64,000 nucleotides of DNA, taken from positions 62,001 through 126,000 of the forward strand of contig JABAQJ010000008.1 in the NCBI GenBank assembly GCA_019186945.1, read 5' to 3'. Positions 35,100 to 42,681 of the stretch are shown here, in pieces. Each line of letters opens with the position of its first letter. Within the stretch, counting starts at the first letter, position 1. The notes beneath the pieces were generated by a model. It was not told the origin of the DNA, did no database searches, and saw nothing but the letters and a program-made list of their open reading frames with translations. The DNA comes from Gemmatimonadaceae bacterium. Its GTDB lineage: Bacteria; Gemmatimonadota; Gemmatimonadetes; Gemmatimonadales; Gemmatimonadaceae. Position numbers and translations under genes: made by a program.

Positions 35100-38000
35100 C
35101 TACTGTCCGGGCACTCGCCCCGGAGTGTACGGCGCGCGTGCCCGCTCGAGTTCGCGTTCCAGCTCCAACACCTCCGGCCCCGCAATCTGCTGCAGCTTCG
35201 CCAGTTCGGCAGCAAACAACTCCGAGGCGATCGCGAACTGTTCGCGATGCGTCCCGGTCGGCGGTCCGAGCGACCGCGCCTGCTCTCCATCGATCCCGTT
35301 CGCCCGTTCGGCGATCGACGCCGGTGTGGGAACGCTGCGAGATCCCAGGGCGTTGTCGCCGCGCAGTTCCACCAGCACGGCAGCGAGTCGCTTCTGCAAC
35401 GCGCGCACCTGCTCTGGTAGCGCTCGCGGCGCTGCCGGCGTGGCATCCAGCGCCCTCTTCATCGCCTCGAACTTCGCGTTGGTCGCATTAGCCAGTTCCA
35501 GCGCACCGGCGATTCTGCGCCTCAGATCGGCCAGTTGTTCCTGAAATGCCCATCGCAAGGCGTGATCGGCCAGCGTCTGTACGCCGTCAGGGTCCAACAC
35601 GACGTTGAAACTGGCGGGTCCGGCCAATGCGGTAGTCATGCCTCCCACGCGCTTCGAAAGCGATGCCGAGTAGCGTCCGGGAAGGACGAACGGTCCCATG
35701 GGACCGGGGTCATCGCCGGCCTGCTGGCTCGCGGGCCGGGTGCCTGGCAGCACGTGCGCCGGCAGGCGCAGATCCCACGCCACGCGCTGCACGCCCTTCC
35801 CACCCGGTGCGGCGATTACCCGGATCGGCTTCCCCGCCGAGTCGCTGACCGTGAGCAGAAGGACCGGCGTTTCCTCGGCGGCCTCGGCGCGCAACTCGTC
35901 AGGCGTGGGATACCGGATGGGTTGTCCTGCCTTCTCCGCCGCCCTTTCCGCTTCTACTCGCTTCTGCTTGAGCGACTTGAGCGGATCTCGGAGGTAGTAA
36001 GTGAATACCGCCCCGTACGGCGGGTTGTCCCCCGCGTAGAGCATCTCTCCCTGCGAGGCCTTGCCGCTTCCGCCGTACTGCTCCGTCGGCACGAACAGTA
36101 TGGCGTCTCGTGTCGGAAATAACTCGACGGCTCGTTCCAGCGTGGTGCCACTCGTCAATCGAAGCGCCGAGTAGTCGTCGACGATGTATACGCCGCGACC
36201 GAATGTGCCCAGCACCAGATCGTTCTCTCGTCGCTGTATGGCGATGTCGGCGACCTTGATGGTCGGGACGCCCGGGATCCGGATCCAGTGCCTGCCCCCA
36301 TCCTTGCTCGCGTATGCCGCAAACTCCGTCCCAATGAAGAGCAGATTCGGGTCGACGTGATCTTCGGCGATCGCGAACGTGCCGCCGCGTTCCGGCAGGT
36401 TGCCGTTGATGCTCGTCCATGTGCGGCCGAGATCCGTGGTCTTGAACGCGTACGGCTTGAAATCGCCGTTCTGGTGGTTACTGAACGTTGCGTAGGCGAC
36501 GCTGGCGTCATGCTGGCTGGCCTTGATTCGTGTCACGTACGCATTGGCGGGCACGCCCGGAAGGCCCTCGATCTTACGCCACGTTCCGCCGCCATCATCG
36601 CTGACCTGGATCAGTCCATCGTCAGTTCCAACCCAGAGCAATCCCTCCTTCTGCGGGCTCTCGGCGACCGCCGAGATGTTGGAGTAGATAGCGGTCGATG
36701 TGTTCTTGGCGACCGCATCCGGGCCCCAGATCTTCCCCATCACTGCCAGCGTGTTGCGGTCGACCTGGCGCGTCAGGTCCGGGGAGATCTTTCGCCACGT
36801 ACTGCCGCGGTCGTCGCTGCGGTAAAGATGCTGCGCGGCCATGTACAGACGCGTGTGCGAGTGCGGCGAGATGATGAACGGGGCATCCCAGTTCCAGCGC
36901 AAGGGCACACCGCCTTTCTCCTCCTGTGGCTGGATGCCTATGCGCTCGTGCGTGCGTTTGTCGACGCGCACGATCACGCCGTGTTGCAGCTCTGCGTAGA
37001 TGGTATTCGGGTCTTCAGGATCGACGCGCGATACGAAGCCGTCGCCGCCCTGAGTCACGAACACGTCCTGGTTAAGGACACCATGTTCGGAGCGCGTGCG
37101 AGATGGCATCCCTAACGAGTTGTTGTCCTGAAGTCCGCCGTAGACGTTGTAGAACGGAGACACGTTGTCGACGTCCACGTCGTAGTACTGCGCAAGGGGA
37201 AGATTCTCGAAGAACGTCCAGGTGGAGCCGCGATCGTAGGACCGATAGAGACCGCCGTCGTTGCCCACGAGGTAGTGGTTCGGGTTGTTCGGGTCGACCC
37301 AGATGATGTGGTTGTCGACGTGCATATACCGCTGCCCGAGCGGCCGGAAAGTGCGACCGCCGTCGTCAGATACCTGGAACAGCATGTCCGGCACGTACAC
37401 GCGATCGAAGTCGTGCGGGTCGGCGAAGATGTCGCCGTAATACATCGAGCCTTGTTGGTAGTCGGAAACCCGGGACCACGTGACGCCGTTGTCCGTCGAG
37501 CGGAAGATCCCGCCGCGCCGGTTTGCGGCCTCGACGTTGGCGTACACGACATCGGGGCGTTGTGGCGAAATTGCCAGACCGATGCGGCCGAGTTCCTCAG
37601 GTGGGAGCCCAGTGTTCACCTTGGTCCATGTCCTGCCCGCATCCGTGGAGCGGTAAATGGCGCTCTCGGGACCGCCGTCGATCAGCGTGAAGAAGTGTCG
37701 ACGCCGCTGGTAGGCGCTGGCGATCAGCACGTCGGGGTTCCTGGGATCCATCACGACATCCGACACGCCGGTGTTGTCGCTGATCCTGAGCGACTGTTCC
37801 CAGGTCTTGCCGCCATCTGTCGTCTTGTAGAGTCCGCGGTCGCCGCCCGGCGACCAGAGCGGTCCCTGAGCGGCGACGTACACGATGTCCGTGTTCGTGG
37901 GGTTGACGATGATGCGCCCGATATGTTCCGAGTTCCTGAGTCCCACGTTCTTCCACGAGCGCCCGGCGTCCTCCGACTTGTACACCCCATCGCCATACGA

Positions 38001-38399
38001 AACCGAACGCTGCGAATTGCGCTCGCCGGTTCCAACCCAGACGACGTTCGAGTTCTTCGGGTCGAGCGTCACCCAGCCGATCGAGTACGACCCTTCGCCG
38101 TCCATGATTGGCGTGAACGAGGCGCCACCACTCGATGACTTCCACAAGCCACCCGATGCCGTAGCCACGTAAATGACGCCGACGTTTCCGGGATCCACGG
38201 CGACGCTCATCACGCGGCCCGAGGTCATCGCCGGGCCGATGGACCTCGCCCGCAATCCCGCGAACAGGTCGCTGGTAAATGGCGACGAATCAGATTGAGC
38301 TGCCGGAGCGGAGCGGCGTCCCTGCTGTGCCGCCAGCGGAGGTGCGGCCCATTCCAGAAGAACAAGACAGGCGACGAATGAACGCAGGAGAAATGACAT
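35100..38399 (-). CDS. Secreted BNR/sortilin-like beta-propeller protein (paralogue 2)
   Basis: 1,099 residues from the ATG at 38399, selected for the signal peptide MSFLLRSFVACLVLLEWAAPPLAAQ; the frame is open 36 codons upstream. Two linked propellers of Asp-box blades follow (GDGVYKSEDAGRSW, TTDGGKTW, STDAGRTW, STDNGVTW, SDDGGRTF, SDDRGSTW, SDDGGGTW, SKDGGRHW), with VNPTNTDIVYVAAQG-type inter-blade strands, closing with LGTFGRGVYIVDDYSALR. The last ~300 residues contain an FnIII-like domain (RVAWDLRLPAH...FVLPGRYSASLSKRVGG) and a helical C-terminus (LRRRIAGALELANATNAKF; QVRALQKRLAAVLVELRG). Same architecture as the protein at 7.3-10.5 kb. Upstream (147 bp) are the three amidohydrolase genes. 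Confidence 0.88.
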   Translation of the reverse strand: MSFLLRSFVACLVLLEWAAPPLAAQQGRRSAPAAQSDSSPFTSDLFAGLRARSIGPAMTSGRVMSVAVDPGNVGVIYVATASGGLWKSSSGGASFTPIMDGEGSYSIGWVTLDPKNSNVVWVGTGERNSQRSVSYGDGVYKSEDAGRSWKNVGLRNSEHIGRIIVNPTNTDIVYVAAQGPLWSPGGDRGLYKTTDGGKTWEQSLRISDNTGVSDVVMDPRNPDVLIASAYQRRRHFFTLIDGGPESAIYRSTDAGRTWTKVNTGLPPEELGRIGLAISPQRPDVVYANVEAANRRGGIFRSTDNGVTWSRVSDYQQGSMYYGDIFADPHDFDRVYVPDMLFQVSDDGGRTFRPLGQRYMHVDNHIIWVDPNNPNHYLVGNDGGLYRSYDRGSTWTFFENLPLAQYYDVDVDNVSPFYNVYGGLQDNNSLGMPSRTRSEHGVLNQDVFVTQGGDGFVSRVDPEDPNTIYAELQHGVIVRVDKRTHERIGIQPQEEKGGVPLRWNWDAPFIISPHSHTRLYMAAQHLYRSDDRGSTWRKISPDLTRQVDRNTLAVMGKIWGPDAVAKNTSTAIYSNISAVAESPQKEGLLWVGTDDGLIQVSDDGGGTWRKIEGLPGVPANAYVTRIKASQHDASVAYATFSNHQNGDFKPYAFKTTDLGRTWTSINGNLPERGGTFAIAEDHVDPNLLFIGTEFAAYASKDGGRHWIRIPGVPTIKVADIAIQRRENDLVLGTFGRGVYIVDDYSALRLTSGTTLERAVELFPTRDAILFVPTEQYGGSGKASQGEMLYAGDNPPYGAVFTYYLRDPLKSLKQKRVEAERAAEKAGQPIRYPTPDELRAEAAEETPVLLLTVSDSAGKPIRVIAAPGGKGVQRVAWDLRLPAHVLPGTRPASQQAGDDPGPMGPFVLPGRYSASLSKRVGGMTTALAGPASFNVVLDPDGVQTLADHALRWAFQEQLADLRRRIAGALELANATNAKFEAMKRALDATPAAPRALPEQVRALQKRLAAVLVELRGDNALGSRSVPTPASIAERANGIDGEQARSLGPPTGTHREQFAIASELFAAELAKLQQIAGPEVLELERELERARAPYTPGRVPGQ

Positions 38400-38546
38400 C
38401 GGACGATCCTGTTTCCGGTTGCAGTGCCAGCAGCGCACAGCCGCGACTCGACTGAGCGACCTGGCCGCGAGCTGCGGCGCGCCCGTTTTCACCGGCGCGC
38501 GCGACACGCACGCACCAAGGGCAGTTCGCAGAGCGGTTTCGGCGCC

Positions 38547-39848
38547 TTACGGCTTCGGTTTCGGGCGAGCGCGATACTGTTCGTAGAGCCTCGTGTGTCG
38601 ATCGTTGAACGGCATGCGTTGCCCGCGCACGATGACTTCCTTGATCAGCGAGCGGATGTCGATCGGATCGCCGGTAGTGACGATCAGGTTCGCGACCTTT
38701 CCTGCCTCGATCGAGCCGTAGTCCTTGTCCACGCCCCAGATCTTCGCGGGGTTGATGGTTATTGCCTTGAGGGCATCGTCGCCGCTCAGGCCGAACGCCT
38801 CGGCAAGCCCGGCGTGGTACGGAAGGTCGCGCGCGCTCGACGCCGATCCGCTCTCGAATGCGATCAGCACACCCGCTTTCGATAGCACGCCCGGATTCGC
38901 GTACACCGCGTCGTACGGCTCGTCGCCGCCCGGCACGGACGTGAGCGGAGCGATGACGACCGGGACGCGTTTCGCCGCCAGCGCATCGGCCAGCTGCCAT
39001 GCCTCCGTGCCCCCGCGGATGACGATCCGCACCTTGGCCGAATCGGCGAATGTGAGCGCATCGCGAATCTGCTGCGCGTTGCTCGCCTCCACGATCACCG
39101 GCATTTCTCCGCGCACGACCGGCGTCAGGGCCTCCATCTTCAGGTCGATCCGGAACGACGTCGGCAGGGTGGCTCCGTTGGCTGTCGCCCGCGCCTTCAC
39201 CTCCGCATACGCGCGTGCATCGTCGAAGTACCTGTAGATGTCACGCACCTGTCGGACGTACTCCGCTTGCCGCTCGGCGGGAGACCGTGGCGGTCCGAAT
39301 CCGAAACCGCCGAATCCCCGGGGTGGCGCCGCGCTGGGCCAGTTCACGACCATGCCCGCGCGCGCCTTCGCGGCCATGTCGTTCGGTGTCCATCCCGCCA
39401 GATCGATCAGTGCCGCGATGCCGGACACCAGACCGCCCGTGGCGGAGGTGATGGCGCTCGTGATCCCGTTGGCTCGCGTGATCGCGATATGCTCGGACGA
39501 TGGGTTCACGGCCGTGAGCACGACATCCTGAGGGTTGAACTCGCCTAGCTCCCTCGTGTCGTCCGGCCCCGGGACGCCTCCGACTTCCGTCAGGCCCAAC
39601 CGTGTCCCCGAATCGATCAGGCCCGGGTAAACGAACAATCCGCTCCCTTCGATCACCGTTGCGTCTGACGAGATCGGCAGGTTCGGTCCGATGGCCGCGA
39701 TCCGGCCGTTCTGCACCACGATCGTTGCATTGGGGATCCGAGGTCCGGTCACCGGCACCACAGTGGCATTCCTTATCACCAGCGATTGCGCGCCAAGGAC
39801 CGGTGCAGCGCAGACGAGCGCCGCGGCGATCATGCGGTGAGTTTTCAT
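38547..39848 (-). CDS. Amidohydrolase-fold protein lacking metal ligands (triplet member 3)
   Basis: 433 residues from the ATG at 39848; the ATGA overlaps the preceding stop by 4 bp. Signal peptide MKTHRMIAAALVCAAPVLGAQ. The composite beta-sandwich (LVIRNATVVPVTGPRIPNATIVVQNGRIAAIG) and TIM barrel of the imidazolonepropionase/amidohydrolase-1 family are clear. The usual PG(L/I)IDxHxH reads PGLIDSGTRLG, so both histidines are lost. Compared with the adjacent active-type paralogue, HWHSYRADE is VEASNAQQI, MQHALEGYK is IRGGTEAWQ, and the catalytic NSDSDER is FESGSASSA. All expected metal ligands are therefore replaced, and it is probably a non-catalytic homologue, perhaps a partner subunit. Confidence 0.9.
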   Translation of the reverse strand: MKTHRMIAAALVCAAPVLGAQSLVIRNATVVPVTGPRIPNATIVVQNGRIAAIGPNLPISSDATVIEGSGLFVYPGLIDSGTRLGLTEVGGVPGPDDTRELGEFNPQDVVLTAVNPSSEHIAITRANGITSAITSATGGLVSGIAALIDLAGWTPNDMAAKARAGMVVNWPSAAPPRGFGGFGFGPPRSPAERQAEYVRQVRDIYRYFDDARAYAEVKARATANGATLPTSFRIDLKMEALTPVVRGEMPVIVEASNAQQIRDALTFADSAKVRIVIRGGTEAWQLADALAAKRVPVVIAPLTSVPGGDEPYDAVYANPGVLSKAGVLIAFESGSASSARDLPYHAGLAEAFGLSGDDALKAITINPAKIWGVDKDYGSIEAGKVANLIVTTGDPIDIRSLIKEVIVRGQRMPFNDRHTRLYEQYRARPKPKP

Positions 39849-41302
39849 CGGGCACCCTCCTCGCTCGTGACGCGCGGCTTCTTCTTCTGCTGTTCGATCA
39901 GCCACTCCAGCGTCGGTGCCGTGCTGCGATCGAAGAAGACCCGTCCGTCGATGAGCGTCATTTCCACGCGCGCCCCGGGAGAAAAGGGATGTGCGTTGAA
40001 AATGGCGAGGTCGGCGTCCTTGCCGACGTCGATCGAACCGACGCGCTTGTCGATACCCAGCTGCAGCGCGGCGTTGAGTGTGATCATGCGCAGCGCGCTC
40101 TCCTCCGAGGCCCCGCCGAAGCGCATCGTCTTGGCTGCCTCCTGGTACAGTCGGCGTGCTCGCTCGTCGGAGTCAGAGTTGATGGTGACGAGCACGCCGC
40201 GTTCGGCCATCAGCGCCGCGTTCTGCGGAATCGCGTCCCACGCCTCCATCTTGTAGCCCCAGAAATCGGCAAAGGTGGAGGCGCCGGTGCCGGCCGCCGC
40301 CAGCTCGTCGGCGACCTTGTAGCCCTCCAGCGCGTGTTGCATCGTGGCGATCCGGAAGCCGAACTCCTTCGCGATGCCGAGCGCCATCAGAATCTCGTCG
40401 GCGCGATAGGAGTGCCAGTGCACCAGTCGCTTGCCCTCGAGCACTTCGACCAGCGCATCGAGTTCCAGATCCTTTCGCGGGGGAACGGGTTCGGGCCCGG
40501 ACTTCCTTTTCGCCCGGTCCCAGACCGCTTTCGCGCCATCGTACTCCTTCCACCGCGCCCGGTACTCGCGCGCGCTGGTGAAGGCATCGCGCAGCAGATC
40601 CTCGACGCCCATGCGGGAACGCGGATACCGCGACGGATTCGACCGCGACGTCTGTCGCACGTTCTCACCTAACGCGAACTTGATACCTAACGGTGCGCCG
40701 GCGAACCTGAGACTGTCCACCGGTAATCCGAACCGCAGCTTCACGACCGCGTTCTGTCCACCGATCGCGTTCGCCGATCCATGCAGAATGTTGATTGTGG
40801 TGGTGCCGCCAGCGAGCTGCCGGTAGAGAGAGATGCCGTCCTGCCGCAGCACGTCCTCGATGCGAACCTCGGACGTGACCGACTGCGTGCCTTCGTTGAT
40901 GGCCTCCGCGGCGGTGTGCGAATGGGCATCGATGATGCCGGGCGTGATGAACTTGCCGGTCCCGTCGATGACCCTGGCGCCGGGTGGCACCTGCACGTTC
41001 GCGCCCACCTCGGCGATCCTGCCGTCGCGAATGAGGATGGTGCCGCGTTCGATGGTACCATGACTCGCCGTCATGATGGTCGCGTTCGTGATCGCGACCA
41101 GCGTTCCGGCGGTCGGCGCTGGCAGCGACAGCGGATCGAGCGTACCGGACGCCTGCGATGCCTGTGCAGGGAGGGCCCCGATGGCCACGAAAACGGCGCA
41201 GCCGATGGCGGCGGACAGCCGCGACGCACGAGACACGAGGCCGGTTGCATTGCGTCCTGAAGCGCCACTGCATGCGGATGTCCGCAGATAGTTCAGGTTC
41301 AT
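39845..41302 (-). CDS. Amidohydrolase (imidazolonepropionase-like), active-type (triplet member 2)
   Basis: 485 residues from the ATG at 41302, which overlaps the previous gene's TGA (ATGA). Leader: a somewhat long hydrophobic signal region, residues ~28-50 (SRLSAAIGCAVFVAIGALPAQASQ). The metal-binding motif is intact: TPGIIDAHSHTAA (H127, H129), then WHSYRADEILMAL (His), ATMQHALEGYK (His) and VTINSDSDERAR (Asp). Other family features include GTTTINILHGSANAIGGQ and GIDKRVGSIDVGKDADLAIFNAHPF. It should hydrolyse a cyclic amide or peptide-like substrate in the periplasm. It is sandwiched between two paralogues that lack these ligands. Confidence 0.94.
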   Translation of the reverse strand: MNLNYLRTSACSGASGRNATGLVSRASRLSAAIGCAVFVAIGALPAQASQASGTLDPLSLPAPTAGTLVAITNATIMTASHGTIERGTILIRDGRIAEVGANVQVPPGARVIDGTGKFITPGIIDAHSHTAAEAINEGTQSVTSEVRIEDVLRQDGISLYRQLAGGTTTINILHGSANAIGGQNAVVKLRFGLPVDSLRFAGAPLGIKFALGENVRQTSRSNPSRYPRSRMGVEDLLRDAFTSAREYRARWKEYDGAKAVWDRAKRKSGPEPVPPRKDLELDALVEVLEGKRLVHWHSYRADEILMALGIAKEFGFRIATMQHALEGYKVADELAAAGTGASTFADFWGYKMEAWDAIPQNAALMAERGVLVTINSDSDERARRLYQEAAKTMRFGGASEESALRMITLNAALQLGIDKRVGSIDVGKDADLAIFNAHPFSPGARVEMTLIDGRVFFDRSTAPTLEWLIEQQKKKPRVTSEEGAR

Positions 41303-42681
41303 CGTTTGTCCTCCACGCCTGGACGTCGTTCGCCACGCGCCGGACTCTGCTGCGTCGCCGGCGCCGGAATCACGTCGTAACGCTGACCGTCCACGAAGAC
41401 AGCGCTCACTCTGGCACTGTCCGTCAGCACTTCTCCATCCATCACCAGCAGGTTGGCGATCTTGCCAACCTCGATGCTGCCGAGTTGCTGCTCCACGCCA
41501 GCGGCTTCGGCCGCGCGGATCGTCAGTGCCTCGAGCGCCACTTGCCGCGGCAAACCGGCGGCGATCGCCTTCCGAACGTTGGCGATGAAGTCGGCAGGCC
41601 GGACGCCGCCTGAGGCAAGCGCGAACTTCACGCCCGCGGAATTCAAGGTAGCGGCGTTGCCTTCCAGCATCTTCGTCACCGCCGCCGCACGCGTAGTGCT
41701 GTCGTCCAGGTCGTGTCGAGCCGCGTTCCGGTACGCCCATCCGGTCACGCTCGCAGGCTCGGGGTAGTCCACGGTCACGACAGGGATCCGCATGGTCTTG
41801 AGCGCGTCAATGGCGCGAAATCCTTCCACAGCGCCAACGACCGTGGCCTTCAGGTTGAACTCCCTGGCAAGGGCCGCCGCCCGCCTGATCTCGTTCTCGT
41901 TGCCGGCGGCAATGAACGCTGGCAGCTGACCGCGCACCACGGGCACGAGGGCATCGAGGTCCGCGTCGTAGGAAGCGCGCGGCATTCCGCGGGGGTTGGT
42001 CCTGTACTGGTCGAGTAGCGTCGCATGCCGCTGCGCGTCGAAAAAGGATTGGCGCTGGTAGGCGATCACGCCCAACAATGATCCCGGGTAACGACCCTGG
42101 ACGGTCTGGTATCCGACGTGCAAGGCCACCGGCGATTTCACGATCCAGTGCGTGGCGGCGTCGTCCCGCAAAGGCACCAACGCTGACAGTCCGCGGAACA
42201 GCCCCCGTCCGGGGGCCACCAGAGCCACGGCGATCCCCACGTCGCGCGCCGAGCGCACGTCGGCTGCGGCTGGTCGCAGCTCGTTGGCGATCGTCCGGCC
42301 TGGTTCGAGTCCGACGTTCCGGATGGAGGTATCCGCCGAAGCTCCGAAGATCGCGGCCTCCATGTTCGCGGGCGGCCGCGCGGCTGGTGACGCCGGCAGC
42401 CCGATGGTCGACGTGAGGTCAATAAGGCCTGGATAGATCGTTCGACCACTGTAGTCGACGACCCGGACATCCGGCGGCAGGTTCACCGAAGCGCCCACGG
42501 CCTCGATCAGTCCGTCGCGGATGACTACGGTGCCGCGGTCGATCGCGCCCCTGGTCACGGTCTCGATCCGTGCATTCACCAACGCCCAGCTCCCGCTCTG
42601 CGCGTTAAGGGGTGGAGCCGCGAGCGTGACCGCGATCGCTAACGCGGTACCGCCACCGCGAGAAATCCAGTAGTGACCCAT
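41299..42681 (-). CDS. Amidohydrolase-fold protein lacking metal ligands (triplet member 1)
   Basis: 460 residues from the ATG at 42681, first of three coupled genes. Signal peptide (ISRGGGTALAIAVTLAAPPLNAQ). Fold signatures are clear (GSWALVNARIETVTRGAIDRGTVVIRDGLIEAVG; IEVGKIANLLVMDGEVL), but the HxH site reads YPGLIDLTSTIGL, the middle histidine strands read FIAAGNENEI and VVGAVEGFR, and the aspartate strand reads ALASGGVRP. All four ligand positions are thus replaced. It is like triplet member 3 and unlike the middle gene. Probable pseudoenzyme or regulatory/structural partner. Confidence 0.9.
   Translation of the reverse strand: MGHYWISRGGGTALAIAVTLAAPPLNAQSGSWALVNARIETVTRGAIDRGTVVIRDGLIEAVGASVNLPPDVRVVDYSGRTIYPGLIDLTSTIGLPASPAARPPANMEAAIFGASADTSIRNVGLEPGRTIANELRPAAADVRSARDVGIAVALVAPGRGLFRGLSALVPLRDDAATHWIVKSPVALHVGYQTVQGRYPGSLLGVIAYQRQSFFDAQRHATLLDQYRTNPRGMPRASYDADLDALVPVVRGQLPAFIAAGNENEIRRAAALAREFNLKATVVGAVEGFRAIDALKTMRIPVVTVDYPEPASVTGWAYRNAARHDLDDSTTRAAAVTKMLEGNAATLNSAGVKFALASGGVRPADFIANVRKAIAAGLPRQVALEALTIRAAEAAGVEQQLGSIEVGKIANLLVMDGEVLTDSARVSAVFVDGQRYDVIPAPATQQSPARGERRPGVEDKR

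Follow-up and report, generated by a model that had tools for sequence, protein, structure and literature searches.

A conserved trio of exported amidohydrolase-fold genes in Gemmatimonadaceae, one metal-competent and two without a metal site: a putative heteromeric enzyme with pseudoenzyme subunits

Results

Gene layout and family membership

Three genes, here called A, B and C, follow one another within the window, by which we mean the whole 64,000-nucleotide stretch of DNA that was analysed (Table 1). All three passed the curated Pfam cut-off of 25 bits for Amidohydro_1 (PF01979), scoring 45.7 (A), 64.8 (B) and 39.8 (C) bits, and their pairwise identity was 27-28%. The best PDB match of each gene was 3OOQ (E = 1e-16, 1.7e-55 and 7.7e-42). 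By inspection the N-termini of A, B and C resemble Sec signal peptides, and a simple heuristic found an export-type N-terminal segment in about 97% of trio genes across loci. The original prediction of three paralogous, exported amidohydrolase-fold genes joined by two ATGA overlaps therefore held in its frames, order and overlaps.

Table 1 Features of the amidohydrolase trio, in positions of the window.
Feature	Position	Strand	Remarks
Gene A, exported pseudo-amidohydrolase subunit (460 aa, P0001)	41299..42681	-	ligand pattern TTHAGG
Gene B, exported metal-competent amidohydrolase (485 aa, P0002)	39845..41302	-	ligand pattern HHKHHD
Gene C, exported pseudo-amidohydrolase subunit (433 aa, P0003)	38547..39848	-	ligand pattern GRVEGG
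ATGA overlap, 4 nt, A stop / B start	41299..41302	-	
ATGA overlap, 4 nt, B stop / C start	39845..39848	-	
HxH codons of B (H127-S-H129)	40916..40924	-	invariant in 140/140 B domains
K208 codon of B, presumed carboxylated bridging lysine	40679..40681	-	same residue in 3OOQ; ligand identity inferred
H297 codon of B, beta-5 ligand	40412..40414	-	
H323 codon of B, beta-6 ligand	40334..40336	-	
D377 codon of B, beta-8 ligand	40172..40174	-	
T90-S-T92 of A, standing where B has HxH	42406..42414	-	
G81-T-R83 of C, standing where B has HxH	39600..39608	-	

Naming B by NCBIfam was tried and rejected, as B fell far below every curated cut-off among the equivalogs compared (imidazolonepropionase HutI, N-acetylglucosamine-6-phosphate deacetylase NagA, 5'-deoxyadenosine deaminase and others), reaching 56 of 298 bits for HutI, 59 of 226 for NagA and 66.5 of 391 for PRK08204.1. 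Directly downstream of C, on the same strand (35100-38507), lies a large exported-looking protein with BNR/sortilin-type repeats, which does not recur beside the trio elsewhere.

Metal-ligand positions

The ligand set of a binuclear site (HxH, Lys, His, His and Asp) is complete in B, and the catalytic set is absent from A and C of the window. At the six ligand columns (H127/H129/K208/H297/H323/D377 in B numbering) B shares the reading HHKHHD with 3OOQ; the corresponding residues are TTHAGG for A and GRVEGG for C. This confirms the earlier claims that the middle gene keeps H127/H129, both later histidines and the aspartate, and that the flanking genes have lost every metal ligand. The replacement of HxH, previously read as LTS and SGT, was one residue out of register, the aligned residues being T-S-T in A and G-T-R in C. 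K208 had not been mentioned as a sixth ligand; its position is also lost in A and C. We take K208 to be the carboxylated bridging lysine because it sits in the motif GxKFALGEN, and this assignment is inferred.

The same contrast was found far beyond the window, and chance can be excluded for the three-gene pattern because it is conserved across phyla. All five His/Asp ligands were kept in 140/140 B domains (140 loci, at least eight phyla) and lysine stood at the K208 position in 139/139 readable B domains, whereas no more than two of the five His/Asp ligands were left in any of 113 A or 134 C domains. In A and C alike, 90% of the domains had Gly where the beta-6 His would stand, a loss common to both. 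A search for displaced ligands found no His conserved at ≥ 85% in A or C, and their former pocket positions showed no consensus and their ligand positions no conserved polar residue. Polar residues conserved at ≥ 85% numbered about 48 in B, nine in A and nine in C. The family-specific conserved residues are Q211, D215 and R267 in A and E88, D97, S118 and R125 in C; Q211 and D215 are invariant in A and, like E88 and R125 of C, lie away from the ligand positions.

Ligand-type residues occurred at three of the six positions in 12 of the 134 C domains, mostly from Bacteroidota, the usual set being H/H/D-E at 208/297/377. Such C domains were seen at loci L144, L145, L147, L149, L159, L162, L163, L167, L168, L179 and L180. 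It remains possible that some, mostly Bacteroidota, C domains hold a residual metal site.

C has a conserved tail of the RHxxLYExYRxRP type (38547-38600), situated at the end of the hydrolase core. Of 73 C domains, 59 carried it, and these came from several phyla; it might conceivably be a docking element.

Spread across genomes

Among 200 Gemmatimonadota genomes, a C homologue was present in 174 and a B homologue in 172, practically the same genomes. Most of sixty Gemmatimonadota loci had the order A-B-C; A and B formed one reading frame in about twenty of them and B and C in two. The ligands were kept by all complete B domains at these loci and by no A or C domain. A second subfamily, comprising a metal-competent B' and a dead C' without A, is common in Gemmatimonadota and Bacteroidota, and A is thus not universal. 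The window's own genome also contains a paralogous B'-C' pair without A, on contig C8 (L062, G000:C8:106000-120000).

Scanning GTDB genomes with the B alignment gave at least 593 relatives. The best 80 include Acidobacteriota, Planctomycetota, Bacteroidota, Marinimicrobia, Pseudomonadota (Idiomarina, Undibacterium), Armatimonadota, Zixibacteria, Ignavibacteria and others. Both the triplet and its ligand loss, which the original prediction had proposed to look for in other genomes, are conserved there. It should be noted that these 80 loci are the best matches and hence biased to the window's type. A further 20 Bacteroidota loci, picked so that unfused and weaker B matches were included, comprised twelve A/B/C loci, seven B'/C' loci (a slash separating reading frames) and one odd long frame (L218). 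In one plasmid record with such a locus, two of the three neighbours were annotated as "amidohydrolase family protein" and one as "amidohydrolase".

Two Planctomycetota loci held about eight (L197, G213:C37:12000-26000) and about six (L198, G207:C6:75000-84000) amidohydrolase-fold domains in tandem. Most of these domains lack HxH and only one or two are intact, which is possibly an expanded form of the same theme.

Fusions, co-occurrence and neighbours

The architectures among 167 loci included AB/C (n = 62), A/B/C (n = 47), A/BC (n = 5), ABC (n = 4) and BC/A (n = 3), Singulisphaera acidiphila being among the four with a single chain. Mapped on a tree built from the B domains of 120 trios, the fusion state changed at least 11 times (A-B joining 7, B-C joining 5), a count which does not separate fusion from fission.

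Of 198 Bacteroidota genomes sampled, 108 had a trio-type B, and every one of these (108/108) also encoded C. It was unlinked from B in 12 of these 108, and also in 3 further genomes, two from Armatimonadota (G200, G204) and G228. The unlinked C lay on another contig or about 1 Mb off and was yet retained, which argues against mere passengers. The neighbours were examined for clues to the substrate. Apart from the trio's own genes, no gene was shared by the surroundings of more than 17 of about 140 loci; the trio is therefore self-contained, and its context does not reveal what it acts on.

Phylogeny and selection

A, B and C each formed one clade across phyla (support 99, 99 and 97). C grouped with C' (97) and then with A (78), and B grouped with B' (95) and then with TM0814 (98), which was placed outside the B/B' clade. 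Since the tree joins A, C and C', a single old loss of the site in their ancestor is the simplest explanation, with the reservation that the branch uniting A with C was not strongly supported.

As the window's genus is represented by one genome only, dN/dS was measured in relatives. The median pairwise values were 0.151 for A, 0.115 for B and 0.134 for C in nine genomes of one genus, and pairs computed in a second genus, in which A and B are fused, gave values in the same low range for all three. A and C are under purifying selection in these relatives; among the three families, conservation is lowest in A. Two outcomes that would have refuted the original prediction, relaxed selection on the outer genes and ligands kept at displaced positions, have thus both been tested, and neither the dN/dS values of A and C nor the search for conserved His refutes it.

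Structure models

We modelled two natural fusions with AlphaFold2: a BC fusion (L127, 832 aa; mean pLDDT 89.8, pTM 0.89) and an AB fusion (L049, 883 aa; pLDDT 85.6, pTM 0.87). Two freely oriented domains would, by our own estimate, score a pTM near 0.5-0.6; the values obtained are well above this and the A-B and B-C packings are therefore predicted with confidence. However, the interfaces themselves are not visible, the models are of fusions from relatives and not of the window's proteins, and AlphaFold2 may reproduce homo-oligomer packing from its training.

The C domain of the BC model matched 3OOQ with Z 47.6 (rmsd 2.4 Å, 370 residues) and the B domain of the AB model with Z 47.1 (1.9 Å, 372 residues). 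The modelled B and C domains of relatives thus meet the (beta/alpha)8 plus small beta-sandwich fold, and the close superposition of C indicates that this dead subunit keeps the full fold. The window's A was checked by sequence only, and the A domain of the AB model (residues 1-465) was hardly covered by the structural comparison.

Discussion

We consider it likely, with a probability of about 0.72, that A, B and C are subunits of one obligate extracytoplasmic hetero-oligomeric amidohydrolase with one catalytic and two pseudoenzyme subunits. The loss of the site and its conservation, the three clades, purifying selection, the gene fusions and co-occurrence even when unlinked are shown. They support the original proposal that the outer genes are maintained as non-catalytic partners and are not decaying; physical association, stoichiometry, activity and substrate are inferred. 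Support for a hetero-oligomer comes from the natural fusions, the 108/108 co-occurrence and the models, and is indirect only, there being no biochemical evidence of a complex. It should also be noted that fusion and operon linkage indicate functional linkage, and not always contact.

In the proposed mechanism the three proteins would be exported to the periplasm or envelope and assembled as one hetero-oligomer. B, with its complete HxH/K/H/H/D metal site, would be the only catalytic subunit, and A and C, with the amidohydrolase fold and no metal site, would be pseudoenzyme subunits derived from copies of a B-like enzyme in which the site was lost long ago. A and C would probably occupy the places of sister subunits in an ancestral homo-oligomer, where they may support the assembly or stability of B and shape or regulate its pocket. 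By inference, the enzyme would hydrolyse a small exogenous molecule at an amide-like bond. One conserved reaction is suggested because the active-site shell of B is invariant in all phyla, and a peptide- or acyl-amino-acid-like substrate may be guessed at, no more than that, because the wider family has dipeptidases and carboxypeptidases, 3MTW and 3BE7 being among the weaker profile matches.

The best surviving alternative, which we nevertheless think unlikely, is that A and C are expressed together with B and act in one pathway with it, yet form no stable complex and work independently as exported binding proteins (e.g. substrate scavengers or sensors derived from a dead enzyme fold). Operon linkage and co-occurrence require functional linkage only, the fold of C is intact, Q211/D215 of A and E88/R125 of C are conserved away from the ligands, and 15 genomes have C at a site remote from B. 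Against this, the repeated A-B, B-C and A-B-C fusions and a pTM near 0.9 favour contact, and the pocket positions of A and C are without consensus, unlike a conserved ligand-binding pocket.

It is very unlikely that A and/or C are active enzymes which use other residues, either in a mononuclear metal site formed anew or in chemistry that needs no metal. The 12 of 134 C domains with three of six ligand-type residues and the invariant Q211 and D215 of A would fit such a reading, but there is no conserved His and no conserved polar residue at the ligand positions, and the window itself reads TTHAGG and GRVEGG. Decay of A and C as duplicates carried along with B, to which the loss of ligands in both and the weaker conservation of A might point, is all but excluded and was rejected on dN/dS (about 0.13-0.15) and co-occurrence, as A and C are retained across phyla and C is kept in every sampled Bacteroidota genome with a trio-type B, even when unlinked.

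If the hetero-oligomer reading is true, many genomes with an "amidohydrolase family protein" encode an obligate enzyme-pseudoenzyme complex, and assays of isolated B would overlook its activity or misjudge it. Because the trio recurs in many phyla, the dead sisters look like kept parts of a complex and not like gene debris. A bolder reading, on which we would not wager in either direction, is of an undescribed, phylum-spanning class of exported hydrolases, each an obligate heteromer in which an active subunit is joined by two pseudoenzyme paralogues of ancient origin that build or gate its active site; the class would have a simpler B'-C' form and possibly the expanded Planctomycetota forms with six or more tandem domains.

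Comparison with known systems

The open-access literature searched, which does not cover subscription papers, yielded no account of three sister genes of which two encode dead amidohydrolase subunits, and no paper on TM0814 or 3OOQ. The earlier claim of a new arrangement held in part: within that literature it is true for this trio family only, as enzyme-pseudoenzyme heteromers are already known elsewhere (PMC7053772, PMC5201418). A bile-salt-hydrolase amidohydrolase (PMC13081902) was considered and set aside, as it belongs to another Pfam family (PF07969).

The aspartate transcarbamoylase of Pseudomonas needs for its activity a pseudo-dihydroorotase, an amidohydrolase-superfamily subunit without zinc ligands (PMC7053772). 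In that complex the active partner is unrelated to the dead subunit and the proteins are cytosolic, whereas the trio has two dead subunits, is exported and has no transcarbamoylase as partner, the active member being a sister amidohydrolase. The AdoMetDC-prozyme pair of Trypanosoma is a heterodimer in which the living enzyme is activated by its catalytically dead paralogue (PMC5201418); its fold is different, it is eukaryotic, and it has one dead subunit. The collapsin response mediator proteins (CRMP/DPYSL) are amidohydrolase-fold pseudoenzymes which form hetero-oligomers; unlike the trio, they are animal cytosolic proteins and their oligomer has no catalytic member.

The closest solved structure of A, B and C is the uncharacterised TM0814 of Thermotoga maritima (3OOQ), which reads HHKHHD like B and matches the fold of relatives' B and C at Z 47. 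Unlike the trio, TM0814 is taken here as a single metal-competent protein. The series from a TM0814-like single enzyme through the B'-C' pair to the A-B-C trio, with every fusion state, is a natural test case of how a homomer may become a heteromer with dead subunits.
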